Of a DNA stretch of 64,000 nucleotides, positions 4,222 to 19,457 are shown one piece after another. The position numbers and the translations under genes are program-made. The notes under the pieces were generated by a model that saw nothing but the letters and a program-made list of their open reading frames with translations, ran no database searches and was not told the origin of the DNA. The stretch covers positions 1 through 64,000 of the forward strand of contig CACGJX010000003.1 of NCBI GenBank assembly GCA_902573465.1, written 5' to 3'. Every line of letters starts with the position of its first letter. The stretch's first letter is position 1. The DNA comes from an uncultured Pelagibacteraceae bacterium (GTDB lineage: Bacteria > Pseudomonadota > Alphaproteobacteria > Pelagibacterales > Pelagibacteraceae).

Positions 4222-4297
4222 TGGCAGGAGCGGAGGGACTCGAACCCTCAGCCTCCGGTTTTGGAGACCGGCGCTCTACCAATTGAGCTACACTCCT
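4222..4297 (-). tRNA. trnW: tRNA-Trp (CCA)
   Basis: On the minus strand the 76-nt gene folds as a cloverleaf with 7-bp acceptor stem AGGAGTG/CGCTCCT (one G.U), anticodon loop CTCCAAA with anticodon CCA, T-arm with GGTTCGAGTCC, and an encoded 3' CCA. It sits between tuf and secE as in many proteobacteria. Confidence 0.97.
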
Positions 4298-4316
4298 ATA
4301 GAGAGTTTACTCTATA
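4297..4316 (-). other. Short hairpin between tuf stop and tRNA-Trp
   Basis: A 7-bp perfect stem, TATAGAG (4297-4303) with CTCTATA (4310-4316), encloses a 6-nt loop that holds the tuf stop codon. It touches the first base of tRNA-Trp. No T-run follows on the minus strand, so it looks more like an mRNA/tRNA processing structure than a terminator. The role is inferred. Confidence 0.4.
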
Positions 4317-5497: not shown

Positions 5498-5537
5498 TAC
5501 TTTTTATCCTCACATTCTTTAATTTATTTTATTTTCT

Positions 5538-5611
5538 TGGAGCGGGTAAAGGGAATCGAACCCTTACATCCAGCTTGGAAGGCTAGCGTTCTACCATTGA
5601 ACTACACCCGC
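5538..5611 (-). tRNA. trnG: tRNA-Gly (UCC)
   Basis: A 74-nt cloverleaf on the minus strand: acceptor GCGGGTG/TACCCGC, anticodon loop CTTCCAA with anticodon TCC, T-arm with GGTTCGATTCC and encoded CCA. It is 41 bp upstream of tuf. Confidence 0.97.
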
Positions 5612-5656
5612 ACGACCCCAAGAGTTACACTCCAGTATCATTAAAAGCTTATTGAT

Positions 5657-5742
5657 TGGTGGAGGGGGAAAGATTCGAACTTTCGAAGACCGAAGTCAAC
5701 GGGTTTACAGCCCGCCCCATTTGACCGCTCTGGAACCCCTCC
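5657..5742 (-). tRNA. trnY: tRNA-Tyr (GUA)
   Basis: An 86-nt class II tRNA with a long variable arm on the minus strand: acceptor GGAGGGG/CCCCTCC, anticodon loop CTGTAAA with anticodon GTA, T-arm GTTCGAATC and encoded CCA. It precedes tRNA-Gly and tuf, the usual tyrT-glyT-tufB style order. Confidence 0.97.
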
Positions 5743-5871
5743 CTTAGGGGAAGTGTCCCCTTGTTCAATAAAGCTTCAAACAACATGCGTTTTATATATT
5801 TTATTTATCCAAATGCAATATGTGATTTATTAAGAAAATATTCAAAAAAACGTGTAAAACTAGGTAAATTT

Positions 5872-6618
5872 ATGAATAAATCATCATTTTTCATTGTTGG
5901 ACAACACGCTGTTATTGAAGCTCTAAAAAATCCGAAAAGGAAAGTTTTAAGAGTTTTTTTAACGGAGGAAAGTAAAAAAAATGTTCATAGAACAAGTCCA
6001 AATAGAAATCTTTTAAGTAATATAAAAGTGTATTTTAAAACAAAAAAAGAATTGGATAAATATTCTACTAAAGAAAACTTGTTGCACCAAGGATACGTTG
6101 CTGAGGTAGAGCATCTTGATAAGCCAATCCTAAAAGAATTTATCAAACAAAGAAATGATATTACATTTGTGTGTTTAGATGGAGTGACTGATCCTAGAAA
6201 TATTGGTGCACTTGTAAGAAGTGCTGCTTCATTTAACATTGATGGACTTATAATAAAAGAAAGACATTTTCCAAGTGAAAGCAAATTGATGTACAAGGCT
6301 GCAAGTGGGTCAATGGAATATCTAAATATTTTTGAAGTGTCTAACATAAATTCAACTTTAAAAAATTTAAAAGATAAAAATTTTTGGGTTTATGGTTTTG
6401 ATGGTAAAGCTGATAAAGATTTTACTGATGTTGAGTGGAAGGGTAACAATATTCTTTTATTTGGATCTGAGGGCATGGGAATGCATCTTCACACATCTAA
6501 ATATGCTGACTTTTTAGTTAAAATTAATATTAATAAAAAAATTGAGAGTTTAAATATATCTAATAGTGCAGCAATAGCGTTTCATCACTTAAGTTATATG
6601 AAAAAAAGAGTTGATTAA
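5872..6618 (+). CDS. rlmB: 23S rRNA (guanosine-2'-O)-methyltransferase RlmB (TrmH/SpoU family)
   Basis: The product methylates G2251 of 23S rRNA in the peptidyltransferase P-loop. The N-terminal substrate-binding domain begins FIVGQHAVIEAL; the C-terminal SPOUT domain has the knot motifs DGVTDPRNIGALVRSA, LFGSEGMGM and IESLNISNSAAIA. An upstream in-frame ATG at 5761 would add 37 residues rich in Phe/Tyr/Ile that are unlike the family, so I take ATG at 5872, which gives 248 residues. It is divergent from the tRNA-Tyr/tuf operon, as in many proteobacteria. Confidence 0.92.
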   Translation: MNKSSFFIVGQHAVIEALKNPKRKVLRVFLTEESKKNVHRTSPNRNLLSNIKVYFKTKKELDKYSTKENLLHQGYVAEVEHLDKPILKEFIKQRNDITFVCLDGVTDPRNIGALVRSAASFNIDGLIIKERHFPSESKLMYKAASGSMEYLNIFEVSNINSTLKNLKDKNFWVYGFDGKADKDFTDVEWKGNNILLFGSEGMGMHLHTSKYADFLVKININKKIESLNISNSAAIAFHHLSYMKKRVD

Positions 6619-6647
6619 TTTATAAATACTTAATAATTATTGCGCAT

Positions 6648-6723
6648 GCCCTTGTAGCTCAGCTGGTAGAGCAATTGATTTGTAATCAATAGGTCCGCGG
6701 TTCGAATCCGTGCGGGGGCACCA
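6648..6723 (+). tRNA. trnT: tRNA-Thr (UGU)
   Basis: A 76-nt cloverleaf: acceptor GCCCTTG/CGGGGGC, anticodon loop TTTGTAA with anticodon TGT, T-arm GTTCGAATC and encoded CCA. Its 3' half (6676-6708) is repeated exactly at 8590-8622, which marks it as the integration site of a small island. Confidence 0.97.
6676..6708 (+). repeat. Left attachment-type repeat (inside tRNA-Thr)
   Basis: This 33-bp stretch, from the 5' side of the anticodon stem into the T-loop, is identical to 8590-8622. It is the attL-like copy and keeps the tRNA complete. Confidence 0.85.
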
Positions 6724-6788
6724 TCACTCAATAAATTCAACACTAATTTTTTTTCCAAAACTAAATTTTAATTAAAATTCTACAGTGA

Positions 6789-6810
6789 GTGTGACGCTAG
6801 TGTGACGGTA
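6789..6810. repeat. Tandem 11-bp repeat at left inner end of tRNA-Thr island
   Basis: Two adjacent 11-mers, GTGTGACGCTA and GTGTGACGGTA, differ at one position. They begin 66 bp after the tRNA and abut the MORN gene stop codon. A related pair lies at 8512-8533. The one-helical-turn spacing suggests cooperative protein binding, for example by a recombinase or directionality factor; that role is inferred. Confidence 0.6.
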
Positions 6811-7662
6811 TCAGATGGTTGGTTTTATTTTTTGAAACAAAGTTCTTTTATCAACATTTTCGTTATCACCATTTGAAAATTTTCGTGTACCTTTTAAAAA
6901 TACACCTTTTGTTTCTTCAATATATTCTGTCGTTAAATGTAACGTTCCTTGATTTAAAATTCCAAATTCTCCAGACTCTTCTCTCCCATCTTCATAAATC
7001 TTTAAACCAGAACCATATGGATATCCATTTAACCAATTTCCTTTATAGGAAAAACCATTTTTAGCTACTAACTCTCCATAACCATTAGCCAAACCATACT
7101 CAAATTCTCCATCAAAAGATCCTAATTCTTTATCAGTTTTCATTTCTTTTATATATTCTTCTTGAGTATCAAATTTTGGACAACCAGGTATATCAATATA
7201 ATTATTATAAACACCAAAGTTAGCTGTGTGAAAAGAAATTTTAAATTTTGCTTTCCCATGCAAACTTCCTCCTCTCCAATCGCCTTCACAAAATAATTTA
7301 TCGTTGATAAACATTTTGCCTTTTCCATTAGGCAAATCATTTTCCCACATTCCCTTAAACTTAATTTTTATATCTCTTAATTTTCTATCTGGATGTTGTT
7401 TTTCATCATAATCATATCTTTTATGTTCAGGTCCTAAACTTTGATCCAATGCCCATTCTTCGAATCTCCATTGACCTGTAATATCCAATGTCCACTCAAC
7501 TGATCCATTGCCATGTCTTTCTTTTTTAGAATTTCTTTCACCTGTATATTTTTCATTCCAGAAACTATAAACTGCACCTTCAAATGGTTTTGCTTTGTTT
7601 GTTGTGTCTAAACCTTCATAATGAGTTTTGTTATCATCTAAAGAATGAAAATATTTTGCCAC
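6811..7662 (-). CDS. MORN-repeat protein
   Basis: The 283-residue protein has several MORN-like units: KFKGMWENDLPNGKGKMF and FCEGDWRGGSLHGKAKF around residues 100-140, SFDGEFEYGLANGYGELV around 190, and YKGNWLNGYPYGSGLKIY around 207-225. Each has the YxGxWxxGxxxGxG pattern. MORN repeats form beta-hairpin arrays often linked to membranes or scaffolds; the specific role is unknown. There is no signal peptide. It is the last gene of the island's minus-strand cluster, 8 bp beyond the 59-residue membrane ORF. Confidence 0.75.
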   Translation of the reverse strand: MAKYFHSLDDNKTHYEGLDTTNKAKPFEGAVYSFWNEKYTGERNSKKERHGNGSVEWTLDITGQWRFEEWALDQSLGPEHKRYDYDEKQHPDRKLRDIKIKFKGMWENDLPNGKGKMFINDKLFCEGDWRGGSLHGKAKFKISFHTANFGVYNNYIDIPGCPKFDTQEEYIKEMKTDKELGSFDGEFEYGLANGYGELVAKNGFSYKGNWLNGYPYGSGLKIYEDGREESGEFGILNQGTLHLTTEYIEETKGVFLKGTRKFSNGDNENVDKRTLFQKIKPTI

Positions 7663-7670
7663 TAAATTAA

Positions 7671-7850
7671 CTACTTATATTTATTTCTAGTCTCATCATT
7701 AATTTTTTTTCCATATTCTCTTATCTGCATTCTTTCGATTGCCTCTGCTTCTTTTTGAGCTTCTTTCTTTCTTTGATGAGAATAATAAATTGGCATTATA
7801 ATAGATAATGCAACAATAATTATTGCCAGTATAATTTGCCAAGTTGTCAT
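7671..7850 (-). CDS. Small single-span membrane protein (59 aa)
   Basis: The ATG at 7850 opens a 59-residue frame beginning MTTWQIILAIIIVALSIIMP, a clear membrane helix, followed by a charged Lys/Glu-rich helical tail. It lies 3 bp after the 20-residue ORF and 8 bp before the MORN gene, so it fits a single operon. I do not recognise a family. Confidence 0.55.
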   Translation of the reverse strand: MTTWQIILAIIIVALSIIMPIYYSHQRKKEAQKEAEAIERMQIREYGKKINDETRNKYK

Positions 7851-7853
7851 AAA

Positions 7854-7916
7854 TTAATCCGTTAATAATTTGTACGTTAAAAATGTTAATTCAATAATAA
7901 TTAGGGCCTCAAGCAT
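7854..7916 (-). CDS. Possible 20-residue hydrophobic peptide
   Basis: A minimal frame MLEALIIIELTFLTYKLLTD has its ATG overlapping the stop codon of the preceding gene (TAATG), and the next ORF starts 3 bp after its stop. The exact junctions on both sides argue that it may be translated, but 20 residues is too short to be sure. Confidence 0.3.
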   Translation of the reverse strand: MLEALIIIELTFLTYKLLTD

Positions 7917-8287
7917 TATTTATCTCTATTAATTTCATCATCATTTAAAAAATAATTCAAGTCATCAATTCTTTCAGATTTATCATCTTTATTTTGATTA
8001 GAGTTAACCTCAGTTTTTTCAATTGTTTTTTTTGCTTTTGATAAAAATCTATAAAAGTAGAAATAACTTAAAGTGACAATTAAAATTAAACTATTTTTAA
8101 TAATAAAAGATAAACCAATATAATTTGCTGAAGTTTTTTCTTTGAATTCTACATAATTTAAATATTCGCTATGAATATAAATAATTAAAAAAATCAAAAT
8201 AGCAGTGAATGATATCCCAACTATTCTCTCTTTTATAAAATTATAGATTTGTCTGTATATGAATAGTTTAGTTAAAAATTGAAACAT
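7916..8287 (-). CDS. Two-span membrane protein, function unknown (123 aa)
   Basis: Two hydrophobic segments, about 25-43 (ISFTAILIFLIIYIHS) and about 58-80 (FIIKNSLILIVTLSYFYFY), are followed by a hydrophilic Lys/Asp/Asn-rich tail. It overlaps the upstream 69-residue gene by one base. I recognise no family. Confidence 0.5.
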   Translation of the reverse strand: MFQFLTKLFIYRQIYNFIKERIVGISFTAILIFLIIYIHSEYLNYVEFKEKTSANYIGLSFIIKNSLILIVTLSYFYFYRFLSKAKKTIEKTEVNSNQNKDDKSERIDDLNYFLNDDEINRDK

Positions 8288-8496
8288 TAAAAATTAGCTA
8301 TACCAAACATTGCTAAAATTGTTGTGGCTGCACCCTTCACACCCCAACCTTGCAAGATTTTTTTTTCTTCCTTAACAATTAAATCTCTTAATTCATCCTT
8401 TGTATAATCTGATGGTTTCTTTTGAAGATAGGCAATTTTTTCATTAACGTTAGCAATTGCTTTTTTTCTTATAATCTTTTTTGCCTTATCTATCAT
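8287..8496 (-). CDS. Small protein, function unknown (69 aa)
   Basis: A Lys-rich, probably helical N-terminal part (1-50) is followed by a short C-terminal segment ending GVKGAATTILAMFGIANF, hydrophobic enough to insert in or lie on a membrane. It is the first gene of the island's minus-strand cluster and overlaps the next by one base. I recognise no family. Confidence 0.5.
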   Translation of the reverse strand: MIDKAKKIIRKKAIANVNEKIAYLQKKPSDYTKDELRDLIVKEEKKILQGWGVKGAATTILAMFGIANF

Positions 8497-8511
8497 AATG
8501 AGACTCTATCA

Positions 8512-8533
8512 CTGTGACGTTAGTGTGACTAGA
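8512..8533. repeat. Tandem 11-bp repeat at right inner end of tRNA-Thr island
   Basis: Two adjacent units, CTGTGACGTTA and GTGTGACTAGA, share TGTGAC at an 11-bp spacing and match the left-end repeat at 6789-6810. They lie 57 bp inside the right attachment repeat. Confidence 0.55.
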
Positions 8534-8589
8534 TCAATATTAAATATCAAATTTCGTTGGAAACAAATATTTATTTTTATTTTTATTCC

Positions 8590-8622
8590 TGATTTGTAAT
8601 CAATAGGTCCGCGGTTCGAATC
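8590..8622 (+). repeat. Right attachment-type repeat (tRNA-Thr 3' fragment)
   Basis: This stretch is identical to bases 6676-6708 of tRNA-Thr; beyond 8622 the match fades. It lacks the 5' half and a proper acceptor stem, so it is not a functional tRNA. Confidence 0.85.
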
Positions 8623-8636
8623 TGTGTGGAGTATTA

Positions 8637-9407
8637 TTAAGATGTTTCTCTTCTAATTTGCTCAATATTTATTTTTTTTTGTAGGCTTCTATCTTTATCA
8701 TAAAGAAGATTAAACTTTATTTTGTTATCAATTTTAATAGTAATTGATTTTGCATTTCTTACCTCTTGATTATCTGCGACTGCACTAATTGGTCGTTTTA
8801 AGGGATTCAAATTTGTTATAATAATTTTTGATTTATCATTTACTATTTTACCTTTCCATCTTCTAGGTCTAAAAGCACTTATTGGAGATATAGATAATTT
8901 TTTTGAGTTAAGACTTAAAATAGGACCATGAACTGATAAGTTGTATGCTGTACTTCCTGCTGGCGTTGATACTAATACCCCATCTGAAACTAATTTTTTG
9001 ATTATTTGTCTAGAGCCTTGCTTAATAGATAGTGAAGCTGCTTGACGACTTTGCCTGAGAACAGAAACTTCATTAATTGCAATCGATTTTCTTAACTGAT
9101 TTTTCTTATTTCTTACAATCATTTTTAATGGTGAGATGGTAATCTTTTTTGATTTTAAAATATTTTTTACTAAATTTTTTGAAGTGTATTTGTTCATTAA
9201 AAAACCATAATTTCCAGAATTAATTCCATAGAAGTTTTTATCTAACTTCTTATATTTCTTTAAAGTTTTAAGCATAAAGCCATCACCACCTATAACAATT
9301 ATAATATTTTTATTGACTAAATTACCATTTTCAAAATTTTTAAGAATTTTAGATTTTAACCTTAAAGACTTTTTATTTTTATCAGAAATTACAATAATTT
9401 TTTTCAT
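8637..9407 (-). CDS. nadK: NAD kinase
   Basis: The 256-residue protein phosphorylates NAD to NADP. It shows the GGDGFMLKTL motif (about 40-49), the INSGNYGFLMN segment, the catalytic-site region INEVSVLR and the TPAGSTAYNLSVHGPI motif (about 150-165). Its stop lies 15 bp from the island's right repeat, so in a strain without the island it would follow tRNA-Thr directly. Confidence 0.93.
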   Translation of the reverse strand: MKKIIVISDKNKKSLRLKSKILKNFENGNLVNKNIIIVIGGDGFMLKTLKKYKKLDKNFYGINSGNYGFLMNKYTSKNLVKNILKSKKITISPLKMIVRNKKNQLRKSIAINEVSVLRQSRQAASLSIKQGSRQIIKKLVSDGVLVSTPAGSTAYNLSVHGPILSLNSKKLSISPISAFRPRRWKGKIVNDKSKIIITNLNPLKRPISAVADNQEVRNAKSITIKIDNKIKFNLLYDKDRSLQKKINIEQIRRETS

Positions 9408-9459
9408 TTACGATTTACTATATAATAAAATTTCAAACATTTTAAAAAAAATAATTTTA

Positions 9460-10194
9460 TTACCAATTTAAGATATTTCTGTTTATATCAATTAATTTTC
9501 CTGAAAAGTTTGAATTATCTTCACCTAGTATATTTATTATTTTTTGAGCAGAAAATTCAGCTGAAATTATTCCTGAACTGTTCATTTTTGTTTTAACGTT
9601 GCCTGGTTGCAAACAAAATAAATTTATTTTTTTATTTTTAAGATCATAAGCAATATTTTTACTTATAGAGTTTAACATTGTTTTACTTGTTCTGTAATAA
9701 TAATAACCTCCATCATGACCATTGGTTAAACTTCCCATTCCACTAGTAATATTCATAATCTGTCTTAAATTATTACTTCCTAAACAAATTTGGATCAATC
9801 TCAGAGGAGCTAATACATTTATATTAATTATTTTTTGAAAATCTTTAGAGTTTATGTTTTCTAAAAATTGGTTCTCTGGGCCAAAATTAGCTGCAGAATT
9901 AATCAATATATTTGGTTTAAAATCATTTAACTCTTCAATAAAAGTCTCATCGAATTCTAGATTTTCAAAGTTATTTTGAATTATTTTTATATTCTTTTTA
10001 TAATTTATATTTTCAAGAGATTTATTTACCAGAGCAATAATATTATTTTCTCTTGATAATTTATTTAATAATTCTAGTCCAATTCCTGAATTTGAACCTG
10101 TAATAATAATATTTTTACCTTTAATAATGAAATTTTTTGAGAAAAGATTACCTAATAAGATCGTTTTTCTTTTAATAGTCTTTAAAATACCCAT
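9460..10194 (-). CDS. SDR-family NAD(P)-dependent oxidoreductase
   Basis: This short-chain dehydrogenase has the cofactor motif TGSNSGIG (near residue 34), the NSAAN segment in place of NNAG, a catalytic Ser in ITSG and the YYYYRTSK motif supplying YxxxK. The substrate cannot be told. An in-frame upstream Met at 10230 lies antisense inside tRNA-Leu, so I choose ATG at 10194, giving 244 residues. Confidence 0.82.
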   Translation of the reverse strand: MGILKTIKRKTILLGNLFSKNFIIKGKNIIITGSNSGIGLELLNKLSRENNIIALVNKSLENINYKKNIKIIQNNFENLEFDETFIEELNDFKPNILINSAANFGPENQFLENINSKDFQKIININVLAPLRLIQICLGSNNLRQIMNITSGMGSLTNGHDGGYYYYRTSKTMLNSISKNIAYDLKNKKINLFCLQPGNVKTKMNSSGIISAEFSAQKIINILGEDNSNFSGKLIDINRNILNW

Positions 10195-10200
10195 CAGTAA

Positions 10201-10286
10201 TGGTGCCCTCGGCCAGACTCGAACTGGCACTCCGCAAGCGGCAAGGATTTTAAGTCCTTTGTGTCTACCAATTTCACCACGAGGGC
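10201..10286 (-). tRNA. trnL: tRNA-Leu (UAA)
   Basis: An 86-nt class II tRNA on the minus strand: acceptor GCCCTCG/CGAGGGC, anticodon loop CTTAAAA with anticodon TAA, long variable arm, T-arm GTTCGAGTC and encoded CCA. Its 5' half plus about 60 bp upstream is repeated at 19629-19730, marking the insertion point of the large island. Confidence 0.97.
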
Positions 10287-10497: not shown

Positions 10498-11481
10498 ATG
10501 AAAAAAATAAAATTATTCGAAGCATTTGCTGGGTATGGAGGAGCATCTTTTGGATTAAAAAGATCAAAAGTTCCATTTGAAGTCATAGGTTTTTCTGAAA
10601 TAGATAGATTAACAAGCGAGTTTTATCAAAAAAATCATCCTGGAATTAAAAATTTTGGAGATATAAAAAAAATCAAACCAAAAGATATTCCGGATTTTGA
10701 TTTATTTACTGGAGGTTTTCCCTGCCAACCTTTTTCTCAAGTTGGAATGGGGTTGGGTGAAGATGACACCCGAGGAACTCTTTTTCATGATATAATTCGA
10801 ATTTGTAAAGTGAAAAAACCTAAACATATTTTACTTGAAAATGTCAAAGGTCTTAAAACAAGCAAACATGGTAGAACTTTGAAAACAATTGTAGAGAAGC
10901 TTACAAATTTAGGATATGACGTTGTAACTGAATTAATGAATTCTAAAGACTATGGAATTCCACAAAATAGAGATAGGATTTGGATTTATGCCTATAAAGG
11001 CATCCTGCCTCTAACATTCAAATTATCCCCAAAGAAAAAAAAACTAACAATTTTTTTTAAAGATCTTTTGGATAAAAATCCAGATCAATCATTATTTAAA
11101 AATCAAAAACAAATTAAACGATTAAAAGAGTTATATGACTTAGATTTTATAGTAAAAGAGCCCTCTTGCGCAGACTTGTATAATAAAAATATTCGTAAAG
11201 ATGGAATAAGTATAACTATACTTGAACCACATCACAACAAAATGAGAGTTGTGCACCCTCCTATAAATAAAAATTTACAAGTAAGAAAATACTCAGTCAC
11301 TGAACATTTTAAACTAATGGGATTTAAAAATGAAAAAATAGATTTATGTGATCAATCATATCAACAATTATGCAAAATGCTTGCAAATGGATGGGATGTT
11401 AATCTTGTTTCTCAAATTTTTAATAACATTTTTGATCAATTGAATAATTATAAATCTGGTTCTATACAGTTAGCATCTTAA
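10498..11481 (+). CDS. C5-cytosine DNA methyltransferase
   Basis: The 327-residue protein has the m5C methyltransferase motifs in order: motif I EAFAGYGGASFGL (about 8-20), motif IV GGFPCQPFSQVG with catalytic Cys (about 75-86), motif VI ENVKGL (about 118), motif VIII QNRDRIW (about 155), a target-recognition region (about 175-265), motif IX RKYSVTEHFKLMGF and motif X LANGWDVNLV. It transfers methyl from SAM to cytosine in a specific site. It converges with the probable restriction endonuclease gene at 11486, only 4 bp away, which suggests a type II restriction-modification pair. Confidence 0.93.
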   Translation: MKKIKLFEAFAGYGGASFGLKRSKVPFEVIGFSEIDRLTSEFYQKNHPGIKNFGDIKKIKPKDIPDFDLFTGGFPCQPFSQVGMGLGEDDTRGTLFHDIIRICKVKKPKHILLENVKGLKTSKHGRTLKTIVEKLTNLGYDVVTELMNSKDYGIPQNRDRIWIYAYKGILPLTFKLSPKKKKLTIFFKDLLDKNPDQSLFKNQKQIKRLKELYDLDFIVKEPSCADLYNKNIRKDGISITILEPHHNKMRVVHPPINKNLQVRKYSVTEHFKLMGFKNEKIDLCDQSYQQLCKMLANGWDVNLVSQIFNNIFDQLNNYKSGSIQLAS

Positions 11482-11485
11482 AAAA

Positions 11486-12364
11486 TTACAAATTAAACTT
11501 AGAAATTGCCTCTCCATAAACAATTATATTATCATTCAATTTGTTACTATTAAGATTATTAAGTAAATTTAAAGTATCTTTACTATACATATTAAATCTA
11601 ATTGATCGATACTTTGACTCGCTTTCATTTCTAACCTCAATTTCAATAATATTTTTAGATTTTCCTGAAGCTTGTTTATAGCAAATCAGTACTTTTTGAC
11701 CATCAACGTTAAAATCTTCTGGTACATGTCCTGCTTTTGATATTGATACAAATGTACTCTCAACAAGTATATTTAATACATCATTTTTATCAAATATCAT
11801 AAAAATATTATCTGATTCATTTTGATTATCTTTAATTGTTAAATAATCAACTTCATCATTATTAAATATGGCTTCATTATAAAAATTTCTTAATTTTGAT
11901 TTATCTTTTAAAGTGTCGCAAACTCTTAAATTATTATCTTTTAGAAAATACTTTGAACTTATATATAAATTCTTTCCAATATTTTTTGAAACTTCTTCGT
12001 TTGATAAAGCTTTTGCAGAAGTTCTTCCATATGTCTTTATATATTTTTCTTTAAAGGCAATGCATTTCTCTCTATCTCTTAAATAAGATTTGAAATTTGA
12101 TGGAAAAGACTCTTGAGAATACCTCAAAATATTCAGATTTAAACTCTGTGATATTCTAGAACAAGAGTATAGAAAAATTTGCCACTTTTTCCCACTTTTA
12201 ACAGAATGTAATTTTTTATTTCTATCCTTAACGTCTGCTTTTTTTGTTCCTTTTATTACTTGACCATTTATCAACGAAGCAAAAATATCCTCATTCTTAT
12301 GTCCTTTTCTTTTTTTTTCACTTGATATTTTACTCGATGGTGCTCTTCTTCTATTAATGGTCAT
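11486..12364 (-). CDS. Probable type II restriction endonuclease (PD-(D/E)xK-like)
   Basis: I do not recognise the whole protein, but the N-terminal region has a plausible nuclease core: Glu25 in GHKNED, Asp44 in KKADVKD, and Ser54-Val55-Lys56 in LHSVKSGKKWQIF, matching an E...D...xVK arrangement. The remaining 230 residues have no known motif and could give DNA specificity. It ends 4 bp from the convergent methyltransferase and overlaps the Cas4-like gene upstream by 11 bp. Call based on motif and context; moderate certainty. Confidence 0.5.
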   Translation of the reverse strand: MTINRRRAPSSKISSEKKRKGHKNEDIFASLINGQVIKGTKKADVKDRNKKLHSVKSGKKWQIFLYSCSRISQSLNLNILRYSQESFPSNFKSYLRDREKCIAFKEKYIKTYGRTSAKALSNEEVSKNIGKNLYISSKYFLKDNNLRVCDTLKDKSKLRNFYNEAIFNNDEVDYLTIKDNQNESDNIFMIFDKNDVLNILVESTFVSISKAGHVPEDFNVDGQKVLICYKQASGKSKNIIEIEVRNESESKYRSIRFNMYSKDTLNLLNNLNSNKLNDNIIVYGEAISKFNL

Positions 12365-13154
12365 TTAACTGTTGTTTAACAAAATCACAATAATTACAAT
12401 CTTCTGTGAAGTTTGGAATAGAGGGATTATTTAAAATGTCTATTATTTTTGTTATATTTTCAAAGAAATCTTTTTCATCTCTCTTTAATGGTGAATAAGA
12501 TATATTCATTCTCATATCGCAACTATTATTTTTGTGGCTTTGAATATCACTTGGATCAAATTGTAATATCCCCATATGAGTAATTGGGTTTAATAAAGGT
12601 GTTTTTTTACTTTTGGTAGATCCAGGTTTTGAAAATATTTGAGCGTAAGCCTCTAATTGGTATTTATAATTCTCCGATTTATCATCAGAAATTTTTGTAG
12701 TTTTAAAATCTATTATACCATAACCACCCTTATCAAATTTAATTACAATATCTGGTCTTCCACCTAAAATGAATTCTCTGCCCTTATTATCTTTTAATGT
12801 TTCTGAAACTACTCTACCTGGAAGTTCATCTTTATTCATTATTCTTCCAGAGGGTAATTCTTTTGTAAGATCAGAAGTATTTTTATCTTTATAATAAGCT
12901 TGTTGAACTACATCAAATCTTGAAAAAACTGGAGGAGGAAAATCTTTAGGTCCAATTTTATGATTTTTTTCTAGATAAAAACATCTTTGACATTTTTTAG
13001 GTTTATAATCTAACTCTGAAGGAGCTAAGACTAACATTCCATTTGAGTTTTTTCTTTTAATATTAATCAATGAACTCCCTATATCAATGATATTTGATTT
13101 TTTTATTGGTTTATTCTTTTTAATTTTTTTATCCATTTTTATTATCTTATTCAT
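12354..13154 (-). CDS. Cas4/RecB-like PD-(D/E)xK nuclease with four cysteines
   Basis: The 266-residue protein has the RecB-family nuclease motifs GRPD (Asp135), IIDFKTT (Asp149, Lys151) and QLEAYA (Gln166, Tyr170). CxxC pairs at Cys55/Cys58 and Cys253/Cys256 flank the core as in Cas4 and AddB, where they bind an iron-sulfur cluster. There is no CRISPR array or other cas gene in the window. It lies between a small zinc-ribbon ORF (1 bp upstream) and the probable endonuclease (11-bp overlap), so it may be part of the same defence module. Confidence 0.75.
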   Translation of the reverse strand: MNKIIKMDKKIKKNKPIKKSNIIDIGSSLINIKRKNSNGMLVLAPSELDYKPKKCQRCFYLEKNHKIGPKDFPPPVFSRFDVVQQAYYKDKNTSDLTKELPSGRIMNKDELPGRVVSETLKDNKGREFILGGRPDIVIKFDKGGYGIIDFKTTKISDDKSENYKYQLEAYAQIFSKPGSTKSKKTPLLNPITHMGILQFDPSDIQSHKNNSCDMRMNISYSPLKRDEKDFFENITKIIDILNNPSIPNFTEDCNYCDFVKQQLNDH

Positions 13155-13818: not shown

Positions 13819-14325
13819 ATGAATAAGAAAAAAGGTTATCCAAGAAAGCCCTATTCATTTGAAAGAGTTTTAAAAGATTTAGCTGACGATATTGGTTATG
13901 AAAATATTGAGACAGTTATTGAAAAGAAGAGAAAAGCTATAGAGCATATTAGTAATCCTAATTTTAAAGATCGTCAGCTTCATATACAAGATGGATTAGA
14001 ATTAGATATCCATTGCAAAAAGATAGGAAAAGGTACACCTTTTCTAACTGCTTATGAAACTTTACTAAGAAAAGAAGTTGAAAACAGAAAAGATCACGAC
14101 ACTAGTGATGAAATAATTAATAATTTACTAAGATTAGGAGAGTCTATAGGAGATGTCATGGAAGAAACTAGAAAAGCTCTTGATGATGATAAAGTAGACG
14201 AAAAAGAAAAAGAACAAATTTCAGTAGAGATTATAGAATTAGAAAAAAAGATCGCTGAACTAAAACTTAAACTCAATTTAGGTGAAAAAACAGACTATAA
14301 AAATCAAAAAAAAAGAGAGTTATAA
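13819..14325 (+). CDS. Hypothetical protein, possibly phage CII-like
   Basis: This 168-residue protein is hydrophilic and mostly helical. The end (about 115-158) has a pattern like GDVMEETRKALDDDKVDEKEKEQI followed by heptad-like IIELEKKIAELKLKL, reminiscent of phage regulatory CII-type proteins, but the resemblance is from memory and weak. It is the only plus-strand gene in the island's middle and ends 2 bp from the convergent channel operon. It could be an island regulator. Confidence 0.45.
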   Translation: MNKKKGYPRKPYSFERVLKDLADDIGYENIETVIEKKRKAIEHISNPNFKDRQLHIQDGLELDIHCKKIGKGTPFLTAYETLLRKEVENRKDHDTSDEIINNLLRLGESIGDVMEETRKALDDDKVDEKEKEQISVEIIELEKKIAELKLKLNLGEKTDYKNQKKREL

Positions 14326-14327
14326 AC

Positions 14328-15527
14328 TTAACTTAAAAATTTACTGCCTAAAAATAAACCCTTAGCAGCCTCTAAATTATAAAAATATGTTAATAAAATA
14401 AACAATACAGCAAAATAGCTTATTGGACCTATAAACTGAGCATACCTATCAACTACACTAAGATCTCTACCTGATTTTAATTTTCTTAGAAATGAATAAA
14501 CACATAGAATAGTTGCAGTACCAGTATAGAAATACGATAACAGTATAAAACAGTCTAAAAATGTTAAGTAAGCTAATTTTGGAAGGTCTTCATCAATAAT
14601 AAAGTTATAAGCAATTAAAGATAACAAGCATACTATCGTTACATTAACTTTAGCCTCTAATTGAGATCCTCTGACCCAAAATACGGACCATGATATCGAA
14701 AGAATAAAGATAATCGGTAAAATTATTTTAAATAAATAATAAGAAGATTGTCTCTGAACATCTAAATAAAGCATAAATCCTGTATAAGGATATCCATCGT
14801 TTTCAACATAAGAGTAATTTTCGTATTTGACATCTATAAGCTCCCAACCAGGAATAATTATTCCGTCCTCTTGATCTCCAAATGCATACAAGGTTTCTTT
14901 ATACTCTGTCATAGCTGGTTCATCAGGTATTATTTCAACCATGAATGATGGAAATTCTGACCACAATTCAAAAGATAAAGTTTGTTTATCAAATGGGAAT
15001 CTTCTAAAATCAAAATTAGCTTTAAATTTCGTTTTATCTCTCAACCTGGATTGAACTGTTCCATCACTAAAAATTTCAATCCAATCTTGCATTCCATATT
15101 GAAAATTAGGTTTTCCTTTTCTATTAAAAAATTCGACTACAGGATCAAATATTTTTCTTGTTTCTCCTATTACTTGAGTTGGAGAATAGTCACATAAGTA
15201 TAAAGGTTTACCTTCAGAGGTATAAAACCCCATATTTTTAAGAGTATTTGCTACTCTTTCATCTTTCCAATGAGCCCATAGAGTAAAAGATGACTCAAAA
15301 TCCAAATCTTTTCCATTGATAGAATGAATATCTTCGACCAATAAATCGGCCTTAACAATAATTGGGTCTTCTTTTGAATATGGAAAATTTGGTTCATTCA
15401 AATTTTCATATAAATTTTTGCAAAATTCTCCTCCCAAATTTTTTTTAGGATATTTATAAAAATTTAATGAGTAAGAATTAGTTTGAAAAAAAATTAATAG
15501 TAAAATTATTTTTATAAATAATTTCAT
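14328..15527 (-). CDS. Pentameric ligand-gated ion channel (prokaryotic Cys-loop receptor homologue)
   Basis: The 399-residue protein has a signal peptide (1-20), an extracellular ligand-binding domain (about 50-260) with the strand LLVEDIHSINGKDLDFESSFTLW-type opening and the family hallmark RRFPFDKQTLSFELW (FPFD at 177-180), and four membrane helices: M1 about 263-285 with conserved Pro, M2 about 291-311, M3 about 318-345, M4 about 366-385. The loop LPKLAYLT after M2 matches GLIC. Aligned to GLIC, M2 has Glu291 at -2' and Leu at 9', implying a cation-selective pore with a hydrophobic gate. The Cys-loop cysteines are absent, as in bacterial homologues. It is the last gene of the five-gene operon and overlaps the amine oxidase by one base. 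Confidence 0.93.
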   Translation of the reverse strand: MKLFIKIILLLIFFQTNSYSLNFYKYPKKNLGGEFCKNLYENLNEPNFPYSKEDPIIVKADLLVEDIHSINGKDLDFESSFTLWAHWKDERVANTLKNMGFYTSEGKPLYLCDYSPTQVIGETRKIFDPVVEFFNRKGKPNFQYGMQDWIEIFSDGTVQSRLRDKTKFKANFDFRRFPFDKQTLSFELWSEFPSFMVEIIPDEPAMTEYKETLYAFGDQEDGIIIPGWELIDVKYENYSYVENDGYPYTGFMLYLDVQRQSSYYLFKIILPIIFILSISWSVFWVRGSQLEAKVNVTIVCLLSLIAYNFIIDEDLPKLAYLTFLDCFILLSYFYTGTATILCVYSFLRKLKSGRDLSVVDRYAQFIGPISYFAVLFILLTYFYNLEAAKGLFLGSKFLS

Positions 15528-16852
15528 TAAATTAGACTTTTTGCTGTAATTTTTCCACTATCGTAAGCTCCTGCAACAGTACCCCACTCTTTAGCTGTTG
15601 CTTCACCAGCAAAATATATTCTATCTCCGACTGAGCTTCTTAAGATTTCTCTATATTTAAATGCATCAGGTTCAGCGGATGCCCATGAGCCTAAAAATAA
15701 AGGGTTTGATGACCAATCAACTGCATGAGATTTAATCAAATCTTTATCAATCTTATTACCAAAAATTTTCTTTAATTCACTTATTCCAAAGTCAATAGAT
15801 GCTTGTTCACCCGATTTTAATAATTCTTTTCCAAAGTCTCCTCCTGGATCACACATACATAATTTTGAATCAGATGGATTCACAGTAATACCAAAACCTT
15901 CTGGTGATTTAGAATTTTGACTATCAATCCTATAATATAAATAAGAATCTTTAGCTTTTTTCTTAAATAATTTTTTAAATTTAAATGTAATTCTGTTGTA
16001 ATGACCCATAGAAATTTTAGAAAATGACTCTTGTTTCTCAGTAGGTAAATTCGGGGTAAATTTAATTTGACCAGAGGCTAAAACTCCAGTCGAAACGGTT
16101 AAAATGCATTTGTTAGCTTTAATCTCTCCTTTATCAGTTGAAACCTTGACCCCACTTCCACTCCAATCAATTTTATTAACTTTTGTGTTTAATTGAACGG
16201 GAATGTTTTTAAACATTTCGACTACCAACGAGCCAAAACCTTCTTTACAATGCCATGGTGCAGACTCGGGAATTTCATAATCAAAATTATAATCTTTACA
16301 TGAGTAATCAGTAAAATCTTTACCCATTTCCCAAGCTCCTATGATCATGTGCATTGTGTCAAACCATCTATGATCTTGATAGGGAACTACTTCAGATGGG
16401 GAAATATCTTTTCTTGTTTTTACAATTGATGCTTCTATACCATCATAGACTTTCCATATTTCACCATCATTAGATATTTTCTTTGAACCACTGTAAAGGT
16501 CGTACATTTCCTCTGATCTCTCTTTGTATAAATTAAATTTTGAAATTTTTTCACCAAACAACTTAAAAGGATTTGTATCTCCATTATCTAACCATAAAGC
16601 ACCAAGATCATAAGGTTCACCAAAGATTTGATTGTCAGTTAGAGCCCTACCCCCAATTCTATTTGATGCCTCCAAACATATAACTTTTTTTCCTGATCTA
16701 ATTAATTCTTCTGTGGCAGCTAGCCCTGCAGCACCTGCTCCAATTACAATTACATCATAATCTTGATCAGCATTGACTTTAATTATGTTAGGAAAAGTTA
16801 AAGCAGTTAATCCTAATAAGGATGACTTAATAAATTGTCTTCTAGATTTCAT
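15527..16852 (-). CDS. FAD-dependent amine oxidase (monoamine-oxidase-like), Tat-exported
   Basis: The 441-residue flavoprotein begins with a Tat-like signal, SRRQFIKSSLLGLTALTF, suggesting folded export to the periplasm. The FAD-binding Rossmann motif is DVIVIGAGAAGLAATEEL (GAGAAG at 38-43) followed by EASNRIGGRA, and the C-terminal FAD motif is IYFAGEATAKEWGTVAGAYDSG. These define the MAO/polyamine oxidase family, which deaminates primary or secondary amines. The usual covalent-flavin Cys near the C-terminus is not seen, so FAD is probably non-covalent. It lies between DUF805 (4-bp overlap) and a pLGIC (1-bp overlap). Substrate is unknown; a related desaturase role is possible. Confidence 0.88.
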   Translation of the reverse strand: MKSRRQFIKSSLLGLTALTFPNIIKVNADQDYDVIVIGAGAAGLAATEELIRSGKKVICLEASNRIGGRALTDNQIFGEPYDLGALWLDNGDTNPFKLFGEKISKFNLYKERSEEMYDLYSGSKKISNDGEIWKVYDGIEASIVKTRKDISPSEVVPYQDHRWFDTMHMIIGAWEMGKDFTDYSCKDYNFDYEIPESAPWHCKEGFGSLVVEMFKNIPVQLNTKVNKIDWSGSGVKVSTDKGEIKANKCILTVSTGVLASGQIKFTPNLPTEKQESFSKISMGHYNRITFKFKKLFKKKAKDSYLYYRIDSQNSKSPEGFGITVNPSDSKLCMCDPGGDFGKELLKSGEQASIDFGISELKKIFGNKIDKDLIKSHAVDWSSNPLFLGSWASAEPDAFKYREILRSSVGDRIYFAGEATAKEWGTVAGAYDSGKITAKSLI

Positions 16853-17223
16853 TTCTTTTTATTTTTTTTCCTTGTAACCCTTTTTAATGAGTCAGGACCA
16901 AATCTATTTTTTCCTTTTGTGCCCTCTGAAATTAAAAAGAATAAAAGTATCAATCCTCCAATAAATGGAATTAAGCTTATTAATAGGAAAAATCCTGATC
17001 GATTTGTATCATGCAATCTTCTTACCCCTGCAGAGATTGCAGGAATTAATGTAAATAAAGTTATTCCAAGAAAAAAATATGAAAGTTCATTTTCTAAATA
17101 TGTAGAAATATAATATGAAGGTGAAACAATTAATTGAAACCACCAATATTCTGACCTACTAGCTCTACCTTGAAAGACAAAATACTTTTTTAAACACGTA
17201 GATACAGATTCACTAAAAGTCAC
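16849..17223 (-). CDS. DUF805 membrane protein
   Basis: The 124-residue protein has the DUF805 signature: FQGRASRSEYWWF (about 17-29), a Pro-rich membrane part, RRLHDTNRSGFFLLISLIPFIGG (about 68-90) and G-KNRFGPDSL at the end. Three to four membrane helices are predicted by eye. The family is widespread and of unknown function. It starts 3 bp after the PDZ-channel gene and overlaps the amine oxidase by 4 bp. Confidence 0.9.
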   Translation of the reverse strand: MTFSESVSTCLKKYFVFQGRASRSEYWWFQLIVSPSYYISTYLENELSYFFLGITLFTLIPAISAGVRRLHDTNRSGFFLLISLIPFIGGLILLFFLISEGTKGKNRFGPDSLKRVTRKKNKKK

Positions 17224-17226
17224 CCT

Positions 17227-18756
17227 TTATCTTACCATTGCCCAACTCAAAGCGTCAATTGTATTTTCAGGTACATTGCTAACACTTATAATAATTATAA
17301 TTAAAACAAACATTAAATAAGAAAAAATCCCATATCTTTTACTATATTGATCAATTTTTGAATTTAAGACTCTTTGTTTGGAATTTAATCCTAGCTGATA
17401 ACTAATTATAGCTAAAATGTTTGGAGCCGCTGCATATAAATAGGATAATAAAATAATCCAATCCATTATAGTTAGATAGTTTAGTTTTGGTATTTCATTA
17501 TCAATAACAAAATTATATGCTATTAAAGATAATAAACACACAATCGTAATAGTCAATTTTGACTCAACTTCCTTTCTATTTAACCAAACAGATGACCAAC
17601 AAATAAATAATATTAAGATTATTGGTAATATTATTTTGAAAATATAATAAAAATACTCTCTTTCAATATGAATCTCATATTCAAGCTTTGAAAATATAAT
17701 ATCCCTTAAAATTAAATTAGAATTGTTCAATTTTATATTTTCAAGTTCCCATCCTGGAATAGAAATTTTATCTTTTGAATAATCAATTAATCTATATGCA
17801 GAGTCATTATAGTCTAAAATTGAATCTTCAATATCTTCACCAATAATTGAAATTTTAATTATCTGTTTATCAAATGGAAAAGATGACAAATTAAAATCAT
17901 TTTTAATCTCCCAAGTACCAATAGAATTTCCAGTAAATTTTATCAGTTTATCATCACCATCTTTATGAGGGGAAATATCAACAAGCTCCTCAGTTAAATT
18001 TTTATTTTCCTCAATTAAATTTTCAAATCCTATAATTTCTATCGGATTTGGAATTCTATTTTCTTTTGAATAATCATAGTTTAAACCAATACATGGTGTC
18101 CCCGCGTATGTGCCATCATCTTGAAGTGGCATTATGGTTTTTTTTGCTAAATCTATGATTTGTGGATAGGCAGACTCATAATAGGATAGATCACTACCTA
18201 TATATGCAGAAAAAGTTACAGAGGAATTGATTACATCAATTTCTTTAATACTCTCTAATGAGAAATCTACTCCGTACCACGCTATTTCATATTTTTGAGG
18301 TTTAATTTTGAGTTTAATTTCTTTATTGTCACGTAACAAAATAATCTGACTTTCTTTATTAATATCTGGATAAAAAACAACATCAAAAATTTCTTGATCA
18401 CTCATTTTACTCAGATCGACATCATCTACTGAAATCAAAATATCACCCTTTCTAAACAAATCATAAGATTTATATGTCCATGCATTTGCAATAACTGGAT
18501 AATTATTACTTCTTCGAATTTTTGATGTTAAATCTTCTGTATATAAGCTAATGTCCTTTTCTGGTGGATCCATATTAAATGCAAAGCCAAAATCCTCAAA
18601 GGTATCAAGAGGTGTTTGCATACTGAACTTATCAAATTTCAAATTTTTATATTGCTCCACAAAATCATAACATTGAAAAGGTATAGAGGCATTAATTCTA
18701 GCTATTGATAATAAAATTAGGATAACAAAATAAATAAAAAAATTTATGATTTTCAT
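17227..18756 (-). CDS. PDZ-domain-fused pentameric ligand-gated ion channel
   Basis: The 509-residue protein has a signal peptide (1-23), an extra N-terminal region with a PDZ-like fold pattern (about 45-152; core LFRKGDILISVDDVDLSKMS with QIILLRDNKEIKLKIKP), then a channel ligand-binding domain (about 155-365) with the hallmark SSFPFDKQIIKISI (FPFD 293-296), and M1 369-391, M2 398-418, M3 424-453, M4 475-492. M2 has Glu398 at -2', Leu at 9', and shares TIVCLLSLIAYNF with the other channel of the operon. It overlaps the PrsW-like gene by 4 bp. The PDZ assignment is by pattern only. Confidence 0.88.
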   Translation of the reverse strand: MKIINFFIYFVILILLSIARINASIPFQCYDFVEQYKNLKFDKFSMQTPLDTFEDFGFAFNMDPPEKDISLYTEDLTSKIRRSNNYPVIANAWTYKSYDLFRKGDILISVDDVDLSKMSDQEIFDVVFYPDINKESQIILLRDNKEIKLKIKPQKYEIAWYGVDFSLESIKEIDVINSSVTFSAYIGSDLSYYESAYPQIIDLAKKTIMPLQDDGTYAGTPCIGLNYDYSKENRIPNPIEIIGFENLIEENKNLTEELVDISPHKDGDDKLIKFTGNSIGTWEIKNDFNLSSFPFDKQIIKISIIGEDIEDSILDYNDSAYRLIDYSKDKISIPGWELENIKLNNSNLILRDIIFSKLEYEIHIEREYFYYIFKIILPIILILFICWSSVWLNRKEVESKLTITIVCLLSLIAYNFVIDNEIPKLNYLTIMDWIILLSYLYAAAPNILAIISYQLGLNSKQRVLNSKIDQYSKRYGIFSYLMFVLIIIIISVSNVPENTIDALSWAMVR

Positions 18757-19457
18757 ATCTTTTTAATTTCATTTTCTCTCTTTTTCAATTTTTGTTTCTT
18801 CTTAAGTTCATTGTGTAAATAAAAAGAAACAATAACTAAAATTCCAATAATTATCATTGGATTTGGCCATACTAAGAAATTATAAAAACCATGAAATAAG
18901 TATGGTAAGGCTAGAGATAATATTAAAAATTTTTTATTCCCTGTAAAAGCGTACATTCCAAAATAGTAACCCATGACTGCACCATTAAGACCATGCATAG
19001 GTATAGCAGAATAAGATCTTGCTAATGCTATTATGTATGACAACTCAGCATAATCAACATTCTCTTCCTTAGCTATTATTTCTGCCCATTCATATACATA
19101 AGTATAATTTTCATATGTCGCAAAACCTAATGAAACAACAACTCCATAAACTAGGCCATCCATAGGTTCATTAAATTCATTTCTTTTTAATACAATTAAA
19201 TACAGAATTGAAAATTTTAATAATTCTTCTGCCCATGCTGGACCTAAAAAACTACTAGTAAGATTTTCTGAATATTTTGATCCGTCATAAAAAAAATCAT
19301 GACTTAAACCATTTAAAATTCCCGCAGGTAAACATATTAAAAATCCAAGAAAAAAAATTAAAACTATTGTTCCTTTAGGTTCCTTAAATCTATCTGATAA
19401 TGTAAAATATAGTAGTAAAACTATTGGTGGAACAAAAGTCAGTAAAATTGTAATCAT
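18753..19457 (-). CDS. PrsW-family intramembrane protease
   Basis: The 234-residue protein is a polytopic membrane protein with the PrsW/CPBP-like glutamic motifs: EELLK (Glu77, Glu78, Lys81), GFATYEN (Glu116, Asn117), and membrane His155 and His189 (PYLFHGFYNF). In Bacillus, PrsW cleaves an anti-sigma factor; no sigma/anti-sigma pair is in this window, so the substrate here may be another membrane protein, possibly the channels. It is the first gene of the operon and its last 4 bp overlap the PDZ-channel gene. Confidence 0.85.
   Translation of the reverse strand: MITILLTFVPPIVLLLYFTLSDRFKEPKGTIVLIFFLGFLICLPAGILNGLSHDFFYDGSKYSENLTSSFLGPAWAEELLKFSILYLIVLKRNEFNEPMDGLVYGVVVSLGFATYENYTYVYEWAEIIAKEENVDYAELSYIIALARSYSAIPMHGLNGAVMGYYFGMYAFTGNKKFLILSLALPYLFHGFYNFLVWPNPMIIIGILVIVSFYLHNELKKKQKLKKRENEIKKI

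Follow-up and report, generated by a model that had tools for sequence, protein, structure and literature searches.

Accessory loci of SAR11 bacteria that link pentameric ligand-gated ion channels to dedicated proteases and, in one channel clade, to a putatively exported flavoprotein oxidase

The use that bacteria make of homologues of neurotransmitter receptors is poorly understood, and GLIC and ELIC, two bacterial pentameric ligand-gated ion channels (pLGICs), are known mainly as structural models. ELIC is reported to be opened by primary amines (PMC3119659), Pelagibacter is listed among the bacteria that possess pLGICs (Jaiteh et al., PMC4795631), and Tasneem et al. describe pLGIC operons and gene fusions with PBP-I, PBP-II, Cache and Na+/H+ symporter proteins (PMC549065). 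Here, we analyze a stretch of 64,000 nucleotides (hereafter, the window; contig CACGJX010000003.1 of assembly GCA_902573465.1) from a SAR11-like genome (1.08 Mb in 29 contigs, 88.6% complete), and within it an operon of five genes encoding two pLGIC subunits (LGIC_A and LGIC_B), a PrsW-family protease, a small DUF805 membrane protein, and a flavoprotein of the amine oxidase family with a motif for the binding of flavin adenine dinucleotide (FAD). The operon represents one variant of SAR11 (Pelagibacterales) accessory loci that couple a pLGIC to a dedicated protease and usually to a CII-like regulator. No published description of a channel-protease-oxidase system was found in the open-licence literature; the novelty resides at the level of the system, and every one of the protein families is known.

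An earlier note on this DNA had placed five minus-strand genes here, with overlaps or gaps of 4, 3, 4 and 1 bp at their junctions. All five genes are present and intact at these positions (Table 1), in the order PrsW, LGIC_A, DUF805, oxidase and LGIC_B, and their junctions consist of a 4-bp overlap, a 3-bp gap, a 4-bp overlap and a 1-bp overlap (-4, +3, -4 and -1 bp). The family assignments made for PrsW, DUF805, the amine oxidase and the short pLGIC were borne out as well, since their Pfam matches exceed the curated cut-offs. The proposed search for the same five-gene neighbourhood in other genomes recovered the exact order at three loci (the window, L125 and L126), while the other loci are shuffled or partial. 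Because the same order occurs in two other genomes, and because the oxidase/LGIC_B pair is found at 12 loci, the five-gene arrangement is not a product of chance.

Relatives were collected with a profile of the PDZ-type channel that was run against contigs from one genome per species (84,980 species). The best 80 of 117 relatives were retained, the weaker ones being left out, and these yielded 78 loci, nearly all of which belong to Pelagibacterales by record title, along with one from SAR86 and a few from other alphaproteobacteria; the loci closest to the window derive from Pelagibacteraceae single cells. Fifty-six of the 78 loci possess at least 3 kb of sequence on both sides of the channel gene and form the fully flanked set, and the 22 shorter ones stand outside the 56-locus counts. 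In addition, 399 genomes of the genus were searched with a 12-row channel profile, and a pLGIC was detected in 38 of them, the window's genome counted. Because the loci are interrelated and most of the genomes are incomplete ones from single cells, the counts given here are not independent trials; furthermore, the search of neighbouring genes detects only families similar to the reference sequences used.

The most consistent property of these loci is the presence of a protease gene within 3 kb of the channel gene, which is found in 56 of the 56 fully flanked loci, even though PrsW as such is uncommon in the genus (21 genes among 201 genomes). Across all 78 loci, 44 carry a PrsW gene, 26 a trypsin-like and/or caspase-like gene, four carry both kinds, and four carry neither; each of the latter (L154, L185, L188, L196) is cut no more than 340 bp from the contig end on one side, and none has a protease gene on its longer side either. 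The 49 PrsW genes located near a channel gene are mostly arranged as in an operon with it (46 on the same strand, 42 upstream of the channel, 31 within 20 bp). Glu77, Glu78, His155 and His189 of PrsW are the same in all 56 sequences aligned, the window's included; His147, Asp189 and Ser269 of the trypsin-like proteins are kept in 29 of 29, and His310 and Cys363 of the caspase-like proteins in 14 of 14, residues that we presume to be catalytic. These protease sets were picked by similarity to references and hence describe recognizable members, and the caspase-like count covers 14 proteins of 400 to 520 residues with strong matches, although 22 of the 78 loci carry such a gene. The window's PrsW belongs to PF13367 with its catalytic residues intact; its score of 113.8 bits against the NCBIfam equivalog NF033739, whose cut-off is 225, indicates a shared fold and does not imply the same function. 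Hence, the earlier assignment of PrsW as the protease partner captured a near-constant feature of the loci and was too narrow, as trypsin-like, caspase-like and CHAT proteins replace or join PrsW elsewhere; in L068, the gene behind the trypsin-like one encodes a CHAT-domain protein.

A quick tree of 98 channels requires 10 switches of the protease label overall, and the starred branches force at least five for PrsW and at least two for the trypsin/caspase type, so that the channels have exchanged their protease partner repeatedly. As a control, we inspected seven short stand-alone channels from the same genus that form a distant branch of the tree, and within 3 kb of these none of the recurrent partners was recognized in any of the seven (L074 and L075 have less than 500 bp on one side; the fragments L028 and the G328 match were excluded, and five matches of similar length, G035, G147, G282, G349 and G385, are omitted). 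At L078, one of the stand-alone loci, an X203-like gene is located within 3 kb and a PrsW-like one at a distance of 5.9 kb, and the second channel of L164 clusters with the stand-alone branch, yet sits in a PrsW locus. Outside SAR11, a channel match was obtained in three of 289 genomes of the class besides the window; a CII-like gene adjoins the channel at the first of these loci, the second is truncated by the end of its contig, the third lacks both partners, and a protease within 3 kb was recognized in none of the three. The protease link is therefore not universal among pLGICs. At the first of these loci (L216, 6475-8326, an alphaproteobacterium of another family), a spacing of 1 bp separates the CII-like gene (29% identity) from the gene downstream of it, which encodes a pLGIC of 461 residues.

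These observations also bear on the possibility that the genes merely share a hotspot of gene turnover and travel together without working together. The regions that harbour the loci are indeed variable, with unrelated accessory genes close by, and PrsW, DUF805 and the CII-like gene are also found with other cargo. Set against this are the protease gene in all 56 fully flanked loci, whose type switched repeatedly along the channel tree, the oxidase and LGIC_B genes that stay within 10 bp of each other while their surroundings shuffle, and the stand-alone channels of the genus, which have partners in none of the seven loci examined. Simple co-residence is already disfavoured by the data, and we consider it very improbable; that these channels and proteases are functionally coupled is, by contrast, a conclusion that we hold with very high confidence.

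The second recurrent association joins the oxidase to one of the two channels. A channel-type oxidase is encoded in 11 of the 78 scan loci and in the window, and at all 12 it lies directly upstream of LGIC_B, with a junction of -4 to +10 bp that is maintained across at least six gene orders. A PrsW gene is present on the same strand within 3.5 kb of LGIC_B in 13 of 13 LGIC_B loci, 12 of which have the oxidase directly upstream. The remainder of the operon is more fluid: the PDZ channel (LGIC_A) and DUF805 are present in some loci with the pair and absent from others, the positions of DUF805 and the long channel are swapped in L135, and L160, L163 and L165 have no second channel. G165, a genome very close to the window, has PrsW, LGIC_A and DUF805 in the same region (97, 95 and 89% identity) and lacks both the oxidase and LGIC_B, as does G230; the oxidase and LGIC_B thus form a cassette that can be separated from the other genes. 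The earlier note had tied the oxidase to both channels; a conserved pairing stands for LGIC_B only. The LGIC_B proteins make up one side of a branch among the 98 channels of the quick tree (Shimodaira-Hasegawa-like approximate likelihood ratio test, 95), and the 12 channel-linked oxidases are split from 22 of the 23 unlinked SAR11 copies, those taken into the oxidase tree, by a branch with 100/100 support. Members of the oxidase family occur in 25 of the 399 genomes of the genus, and only the copies of the window and of G315, which are 86% identical to each other, are channel-linked; the other 23 copies share 40-44% identity with that of the window. The window's oxidase scores 151 bits against PF01593 (cut-off 19.8), and the RRxF sequence of its predicted twin-arginine translocation (Tat) signal and the FAD-binding GAGAAG motif are invariant in all 12 channel-linked oxidases. 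We regard a functional coupling of LGIC_B and the oxidase as highly probable.

LGIC_B exceeds the cut-off of PF02931 and scores 23.6 bits against PF02932, below the cut-off of 28.1. The best solved relative of its family profile is sTeLIC (E = 3.8e-30, positions 57-386), ELIC is also among the best matches, and a profile built from mixed channels has GLIC and two channels with chains of more than 600 residues among its best solved matches, one of which we take to be DeCLIC. Its structural model, which is weak (predicted local distance difference test score, pLDDT, of 63 from a 13-row alignment), superimposes on a GABA-A receptor chain with a Z score of 21.8 (319 aligned residues, root-mean-square deviation, rmsd, of 4.1). 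Profile matches and model together predict for LGIC_B the ligand-binding domain followed by a four-helix membrane domain that characterizes pLGICs. The FPFDxQ motif is retained and the cysteines of the Cys-loop are lacking in LGIC_A and LGIC_B, which thus are not Cys-loop receptors in the strict sense. Two other cysteines of LGIC_B, C36 and C112, are invariant and lie away from the Cys-loop position; all 12 aligned channels have cysteine in these columns, and the two may form a different disulfide.

The 12 oxidase-linked LGIC_B proteins differ from each other primarily in the part that should bind the ligand. Their pore segments are 84% identical on average (minimum 77%) and their ectodomains 57% (minimum 40%); the latter fall into three types, with at least 70% identity within a type and 40-52% between types. 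When the loci are compared in steps of 100 bp, the window and L160 share 84-94% identity in the oxidase gene, 52-73% in the ectodomain and 82-94% in the pore, while L131 and L160 are 97-100% identical in the ectodomain with oxidase genes at 61 to 97%; for L160 and L163, the oxidase values are mostly 73-80% (59-89% overall) and those of the ectodomain 88-97%. Recombination that exchanged the sensing domain of LGIC_B between more constant oxidase and pore segments appears to explain this pattern best. Within the exchanged segment, W189-S190-E191 at a loop-B-like position and Y238, N243, D244 and Y248 at a loop-C-like position are invariant in 13 LGIC_B proteins; WSE is absent from the loop-B-like position of the window's LGIC_A. 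We presume, by analogy with GLIC, ELIC and the animal receptors, that these residues line the ligand pocket and that Glu291 occupies the position of the cation-selectivity ring, and the LGIC_B channel is probably cation-selective. The invariance of the loop-B- and loop-C-like residues, at ectodomain identities that drop to 40%, is what one would expect if a single ligand class had been kept.

Taken together, these features are best interpreted as a protease-coupled receptor channel located in the inner membrane, with a Tat-exported oxidase that controls its ligand in the periplasm, an interpretation to which we assign about an even chance. It is in line with an amine ligand that ELIC, one of the best solved relatives of LGIC_B, responds to primary amines. 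The FAD oxidase would be exported in a folded state via the Tat pathway to the periplasm and would act there on the same small molecule that opens LGIC_B, probably an amine, either destroying the ligand and thereby ending the signal, or making the active product. Binding of the ligand between LGIC_B ectodomains would open a cation-conducting pore across the inner membrane, with an effect on the membrane potential or the ion content of the cell. LGIC_A might serve as a further receptor and use its PDZ domain to bind the C-termini of periplasmic proteins. PrsW may cleave a channel or a partner within the membrane and thereby arm or silence the channel, or may control channel turnover as the earlier note had proposed, and the CII-like protein may set expression. 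Taken for itself, the coupling of LGIC_B to the oxidase through a common small-molecule ligand is likely by a small measure, and the occurrence of one oxidase across different ectodomain types suits a constant ligand class.

Several observations weigh against this interpretation. Divergence of the ectodomain is unrelated to that of the oxidase (Mantel r = 0.05, p = 0.29), so that the idea of their co-diversification is not supported: ectodomain type does not track oxidase relatedness, and enzyme and sensor hence do not diversify as a matched pair would. The divergence of the pore tracks that of the oxidase weakly (Mantel r = 0.35, p = 0.05). In L162, a 339-residue protein without a Pfam match fills the oxidase slot upstream of LGIC_B. 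When any oxidase of the family is compared with any channel across the 399 genomes, three genomes share them and 2.4 are expected (p = 0.43); a genome-wide co-occurrence was therefore rejected, and the tie to channels is confined to the clade of channel-linked oxidases. Of the 21 PrsW genes found in 201 genomes of the genus, only seven adjoin a channel gene, PrsW thus having other partners too. Finally, the solved structures that match the oxidase best are mixed (split matches to the histone demethylase LSD2, polyamine oxidase and others), and the position that aligns with a lysine in LSD2 is occupied by Arg287 in the window's oxidase.

The LSD2 match raises the question of whether the enzyme might, in an LSD-like manner, modify a side-chain amine of the channel or of another periplasmic protein and not a free ligand. 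The nearly constant adjacency of the enzyme and channel genes would suit such a role, but LSD2 matches in two split stretches only, and in three of eight unlinked neighbourhoods the oxidase gene lies behind genes that resemble, as we assume from their sequences, a TctABC transporter, which suggests small-molecule substrates; we judge protein modification to be quite improbable. At these loci (L202, 4397-8714; also L203 and L204), the unlinked oxidase follows directly after a three-gene set similar to a tripartite tricarboxylate-type transporter, a possible clue to its substrate.

A different purpose is suggested by the combination of a pore and a protease. In an alarm or self-killing system akin to gasdermin operons, the variable ectodomain or the PDZ domain would sense a threat to the envelope (phage, toxin or damage), the protease would cleave and thereby activate the channel, and the resulting ion flux would stop or kill the cell; the oxidase would be an added oxidative effector or would tune the trigger. 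Such an alarm is consistent with the presence of a channel and a protease (PrsW, trypsin-like and/or caspase-like) in every fully flanked locus, to which L068 adds a CHAT protein, and with the report that bacterial gasdermins are encoded beside caspase-like (Peptidase C14, CHAT) and trypsin-like proteases (PMC9612521). The patchy distribution of the loci (38 of 399 genomes), their swapped ectodomains, and the C5 methylase and PD-(D/E)XK genes in the same region of the window point in the same direction; exchange of the ectodomain together with the patchy location would indicate a receptor under changing selection, which suits an alarm. Eight trypsin-like and eight caspase-like N-termini, however, look by eye like signal peptides, which implies action outside the cytoplasm, where the gasdermin proteases are not known to act, and pLGIC pores are gated and narrow. 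Moreover, PADLOC had no match for the window's PrsW, channels or CII-like protein, and no link to phages was seen, viral contigs scanned with alignments of LGIC_A, the CII-like protein and the oxidase containing no relative. We regard such an alarm as possible but doubtful.

Three better-defined identities were considered and rejected. A known anti-phage system was discarded on the basis of the PADLOC result (DUF805 was outside the scan; the oxidase matched over a 39-residue stretch), it being noted that the trypsin-like and caspase-like proteins of the relatives do match PADLOC protease models; a viral origin was discarded because of the scan of viral contigs; and the locus is not a bacterial gasdermin system, as its pore gene encodes a pLGIC. 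In L198 (4199-6885) and similar loci, the caspase-like (repeatedly) and trypsin-like proteins contain WIKKK-like motifs, candidate sites of trypsin cleavage, which suggest a zymogen cascade outside the cytoplasm. Tandem, divergent proteins of about 195 residues with signal-like N-termini are encoded beside channel loci of the trypsin/caspase type (L024, 6131-9671; L065, 8648-13864; L061, 733-5336); one of them was run against Pfam and gave no match.

Two purposes fit the data: the sensing of a chemical that is locally removed or produced, or a gasdermin-like alarm licensed by a protease. Both might be combined in a synapse-like alarm of SAR11, in which a protease-licensed, ligand-gated cation channel with allele-like exchange of its ectodomain answers cues from phages, toxins or neighbours by depolarization and not by a large lytic pore, while an exported oxidase ends or makes the signal; we offer this as a tentative and rather unlikely proposal.

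The earlier label of a PDZ-containing pLGIC for LGIC_A holds with respect to the channel fold, as judged by the model, and the PDZ part is assigned mainly through relatives. Pfam detects in LGIC_A the transmembrane family alone, below its cut-off (5.3e-05). In the AlphaFold2 model (pLDDT of 79), a helix at the N-terminus is followed by a small alpha/beta domain (about residues 51-151), a beta-sandwich and membrane helices. Foldseek matches it to GLIC (E = 8e-16) with a whole-chain rmsd of 11.9 Å, so that the angles between the domains of the model are unreliable; the ectodomain superimposes on that of a GABA-A receptor over 204 residues at 2.7 Å (Z score of 18.2). LGIC_A is thus clearly modelled with a pLGIC fold, in which a PDZ-like domain appears as an insertion that separates the N-terminal helix from the beta-sandwich. 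PF00595 (PDZ) is matched by five of 18 aligned family members (best E = 7.1e-06); the window's copy has no PF00595 match at E<=1, and its residues 73-152 give a weak NCBIfam PDZ match (E = 0.011). LGIC_A is 95% identical to its counterpart in the close genome G165, and comparison with that of G315 yields 33% identity for the N-terminal domain, 40% for the ectodomain and 76% for the pore, the divergence of the sensing part being unlike that of PrsW (95%) and the CII-like protein (96%) from the same two genomes.

Convergent with LGIC_B, and overlooked by the earlier note, is a gene for a CII-like protein that ends 2 bases past the LGIC_B stop codon and is the single copy found in the window's genome. 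Its PF06892 match is borderline (27.0 bits against a cut-off of 26) and covers only positions 69-141 of the 146 profile positions. A CII-like gene lies near the channel in 42 of the 56 fully flanked loci. The family occurs in 41 of the 399 genomes of the genus, and 24 genomes have both a CII-like gene and a channel, compared with 3.9 expected (Fisher p ~4e-18, with species relatedness ignored); the two genes are no more than 3 kb apart in 21 of these 24. Eleven of the 78 loci have a DUF805 gene close to the channel. At L106 (5740-10285), L107 (6072-10209) and L227 (7230-10085), PrsW is combined with DUF805 and/or a CII-like gene, and the channel is replaced by a pair of proteins of about 280-300 residues, sometimes together with a Sel1-repeat protein. 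Pfam searches with this alternative cargo, with the substitute gene of L162 and with an 855-residue neighbour identified nothing informative apart from Sel1 repeats.

The operon is part of an accessory region of SAR11. It is flanked by what we take to be an EF-Tu/tRNA block on one side and sugar-metabolism genes on the other; the gene content of the region between EF-Tu/tRNA and MPGP varies among the relatives, in which homologues of the flanking genes border variable content. The previously suggested location in a tRNA island applies loosely, as five tRNA genes are present at 4222-10286, the closest being 4 kb from the operon. The same region contains, at 10498-13154, genes for a C5-cytosine methylase and a PD-(D/E)XK protein (weakly Cas4/DruK-like), and the PD-(D/E)XK gene again adjoins the CII-like gene in the relatives L066, L105 and L106. 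A scan for promoters and terminators was uninformative (35 promoter-like sites compared with 43 in shuffled sequences).

Table 1. Features of the operon and of the adjacent regulatory gene in the window.
Feature	Position	Strand	Basis
PrsW-family glutamic intramembrane protease, 234 residues, first gene of the operon	18753..19457	-	PF13367, E = 2.2e-33
LGIC_A, pLGIC subunit, 509 residues, signal-like N-terminus and PDZ-like domain	17227..18756	-	model, fold matches
PDZ-like domain of LGIC_A, about residues 51-151	18304..18606	-	secondary structure of the model, weak NCBIfam match, relatives
DUF805 small membrane protein, 124 residues, GTG start	16849..17223	-	PF05656, E = 1.5e-25
FAD amine-oxidase-family flavoprotein, 441 residues, Tat signal	15527..16852	-	PF01593, E = 6.7e-44
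LGIC_B, short pLGIC subunit, 399 residues, without PDZ	14328..15527	-	PF02931, E = 2.6e-11
Periplasmic ectodomain of LGIC_B, residues 21-259, exchanged segment	14751..15467	-	alignment, identity comparisons
Transmembrane pore of LGIC_B, residues 260-399, most conserved part	14331..14750	-	alignment
CII/CP76-like regulator, 168 residues, convergent with LGIC_B	13819..14325	+	PF06892, 27.0 bits, cut-off 26

In these loci, the genomes themselves name the partners of a bacterial channel: a protease in almost every case, a regulator in most and, for one clade, an enzyme that is likely to handle the ligand. The native ligand, the regulation and the purpose of such a channel thereby become directly testable in a defined set of two or three genes, and the conserved links, together with the swapped sensing part of the channel, point to a sensing or alarm system that has not been described before.

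With GLIC, ELIC, sTeLIC and DeCLIC, the SAR11 channels share fold and family; unlike these, LGIC_A has a PDZ-like domain and a protease as its neighbour, and LGIC_B is accompanied by an oxidase predicted to be exported. PrsW of Bacillus subtilis acts on the anti-sigma factor RsiW; the window's PrsW belongs to the same protease family and retains the catalytic residues, but Pfam names no anti-sigma gene in the operon, and its neighbours are channels. The oxidase resembles monoamine oxidase (MAO), polyamine oxidase and LSD as a member of PF01593 with an FAD motif, and it differs from them in its Tat signal and in being co-encoded with a channel. As in the operons of Tasneem et al. (PMC549065), a bacterial pLGIC is predicted to work with neighbouring ligand-handling proteins, whereas the passages of that paper on which we draw name no protease partner, and the terms amine oxidase and PDZ are absent from its text. 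The gasdermin operons (PMC9612521) likewise place the gene for a membrane pore beside genes for caspase-like, CHAT or trypsin-like proteases; unlike there, the pore of the SAR11 loci is a pLGIC with a signal-like N-terminus and a predicted four-helix membrane domain, and the protease of the window is PrsW.

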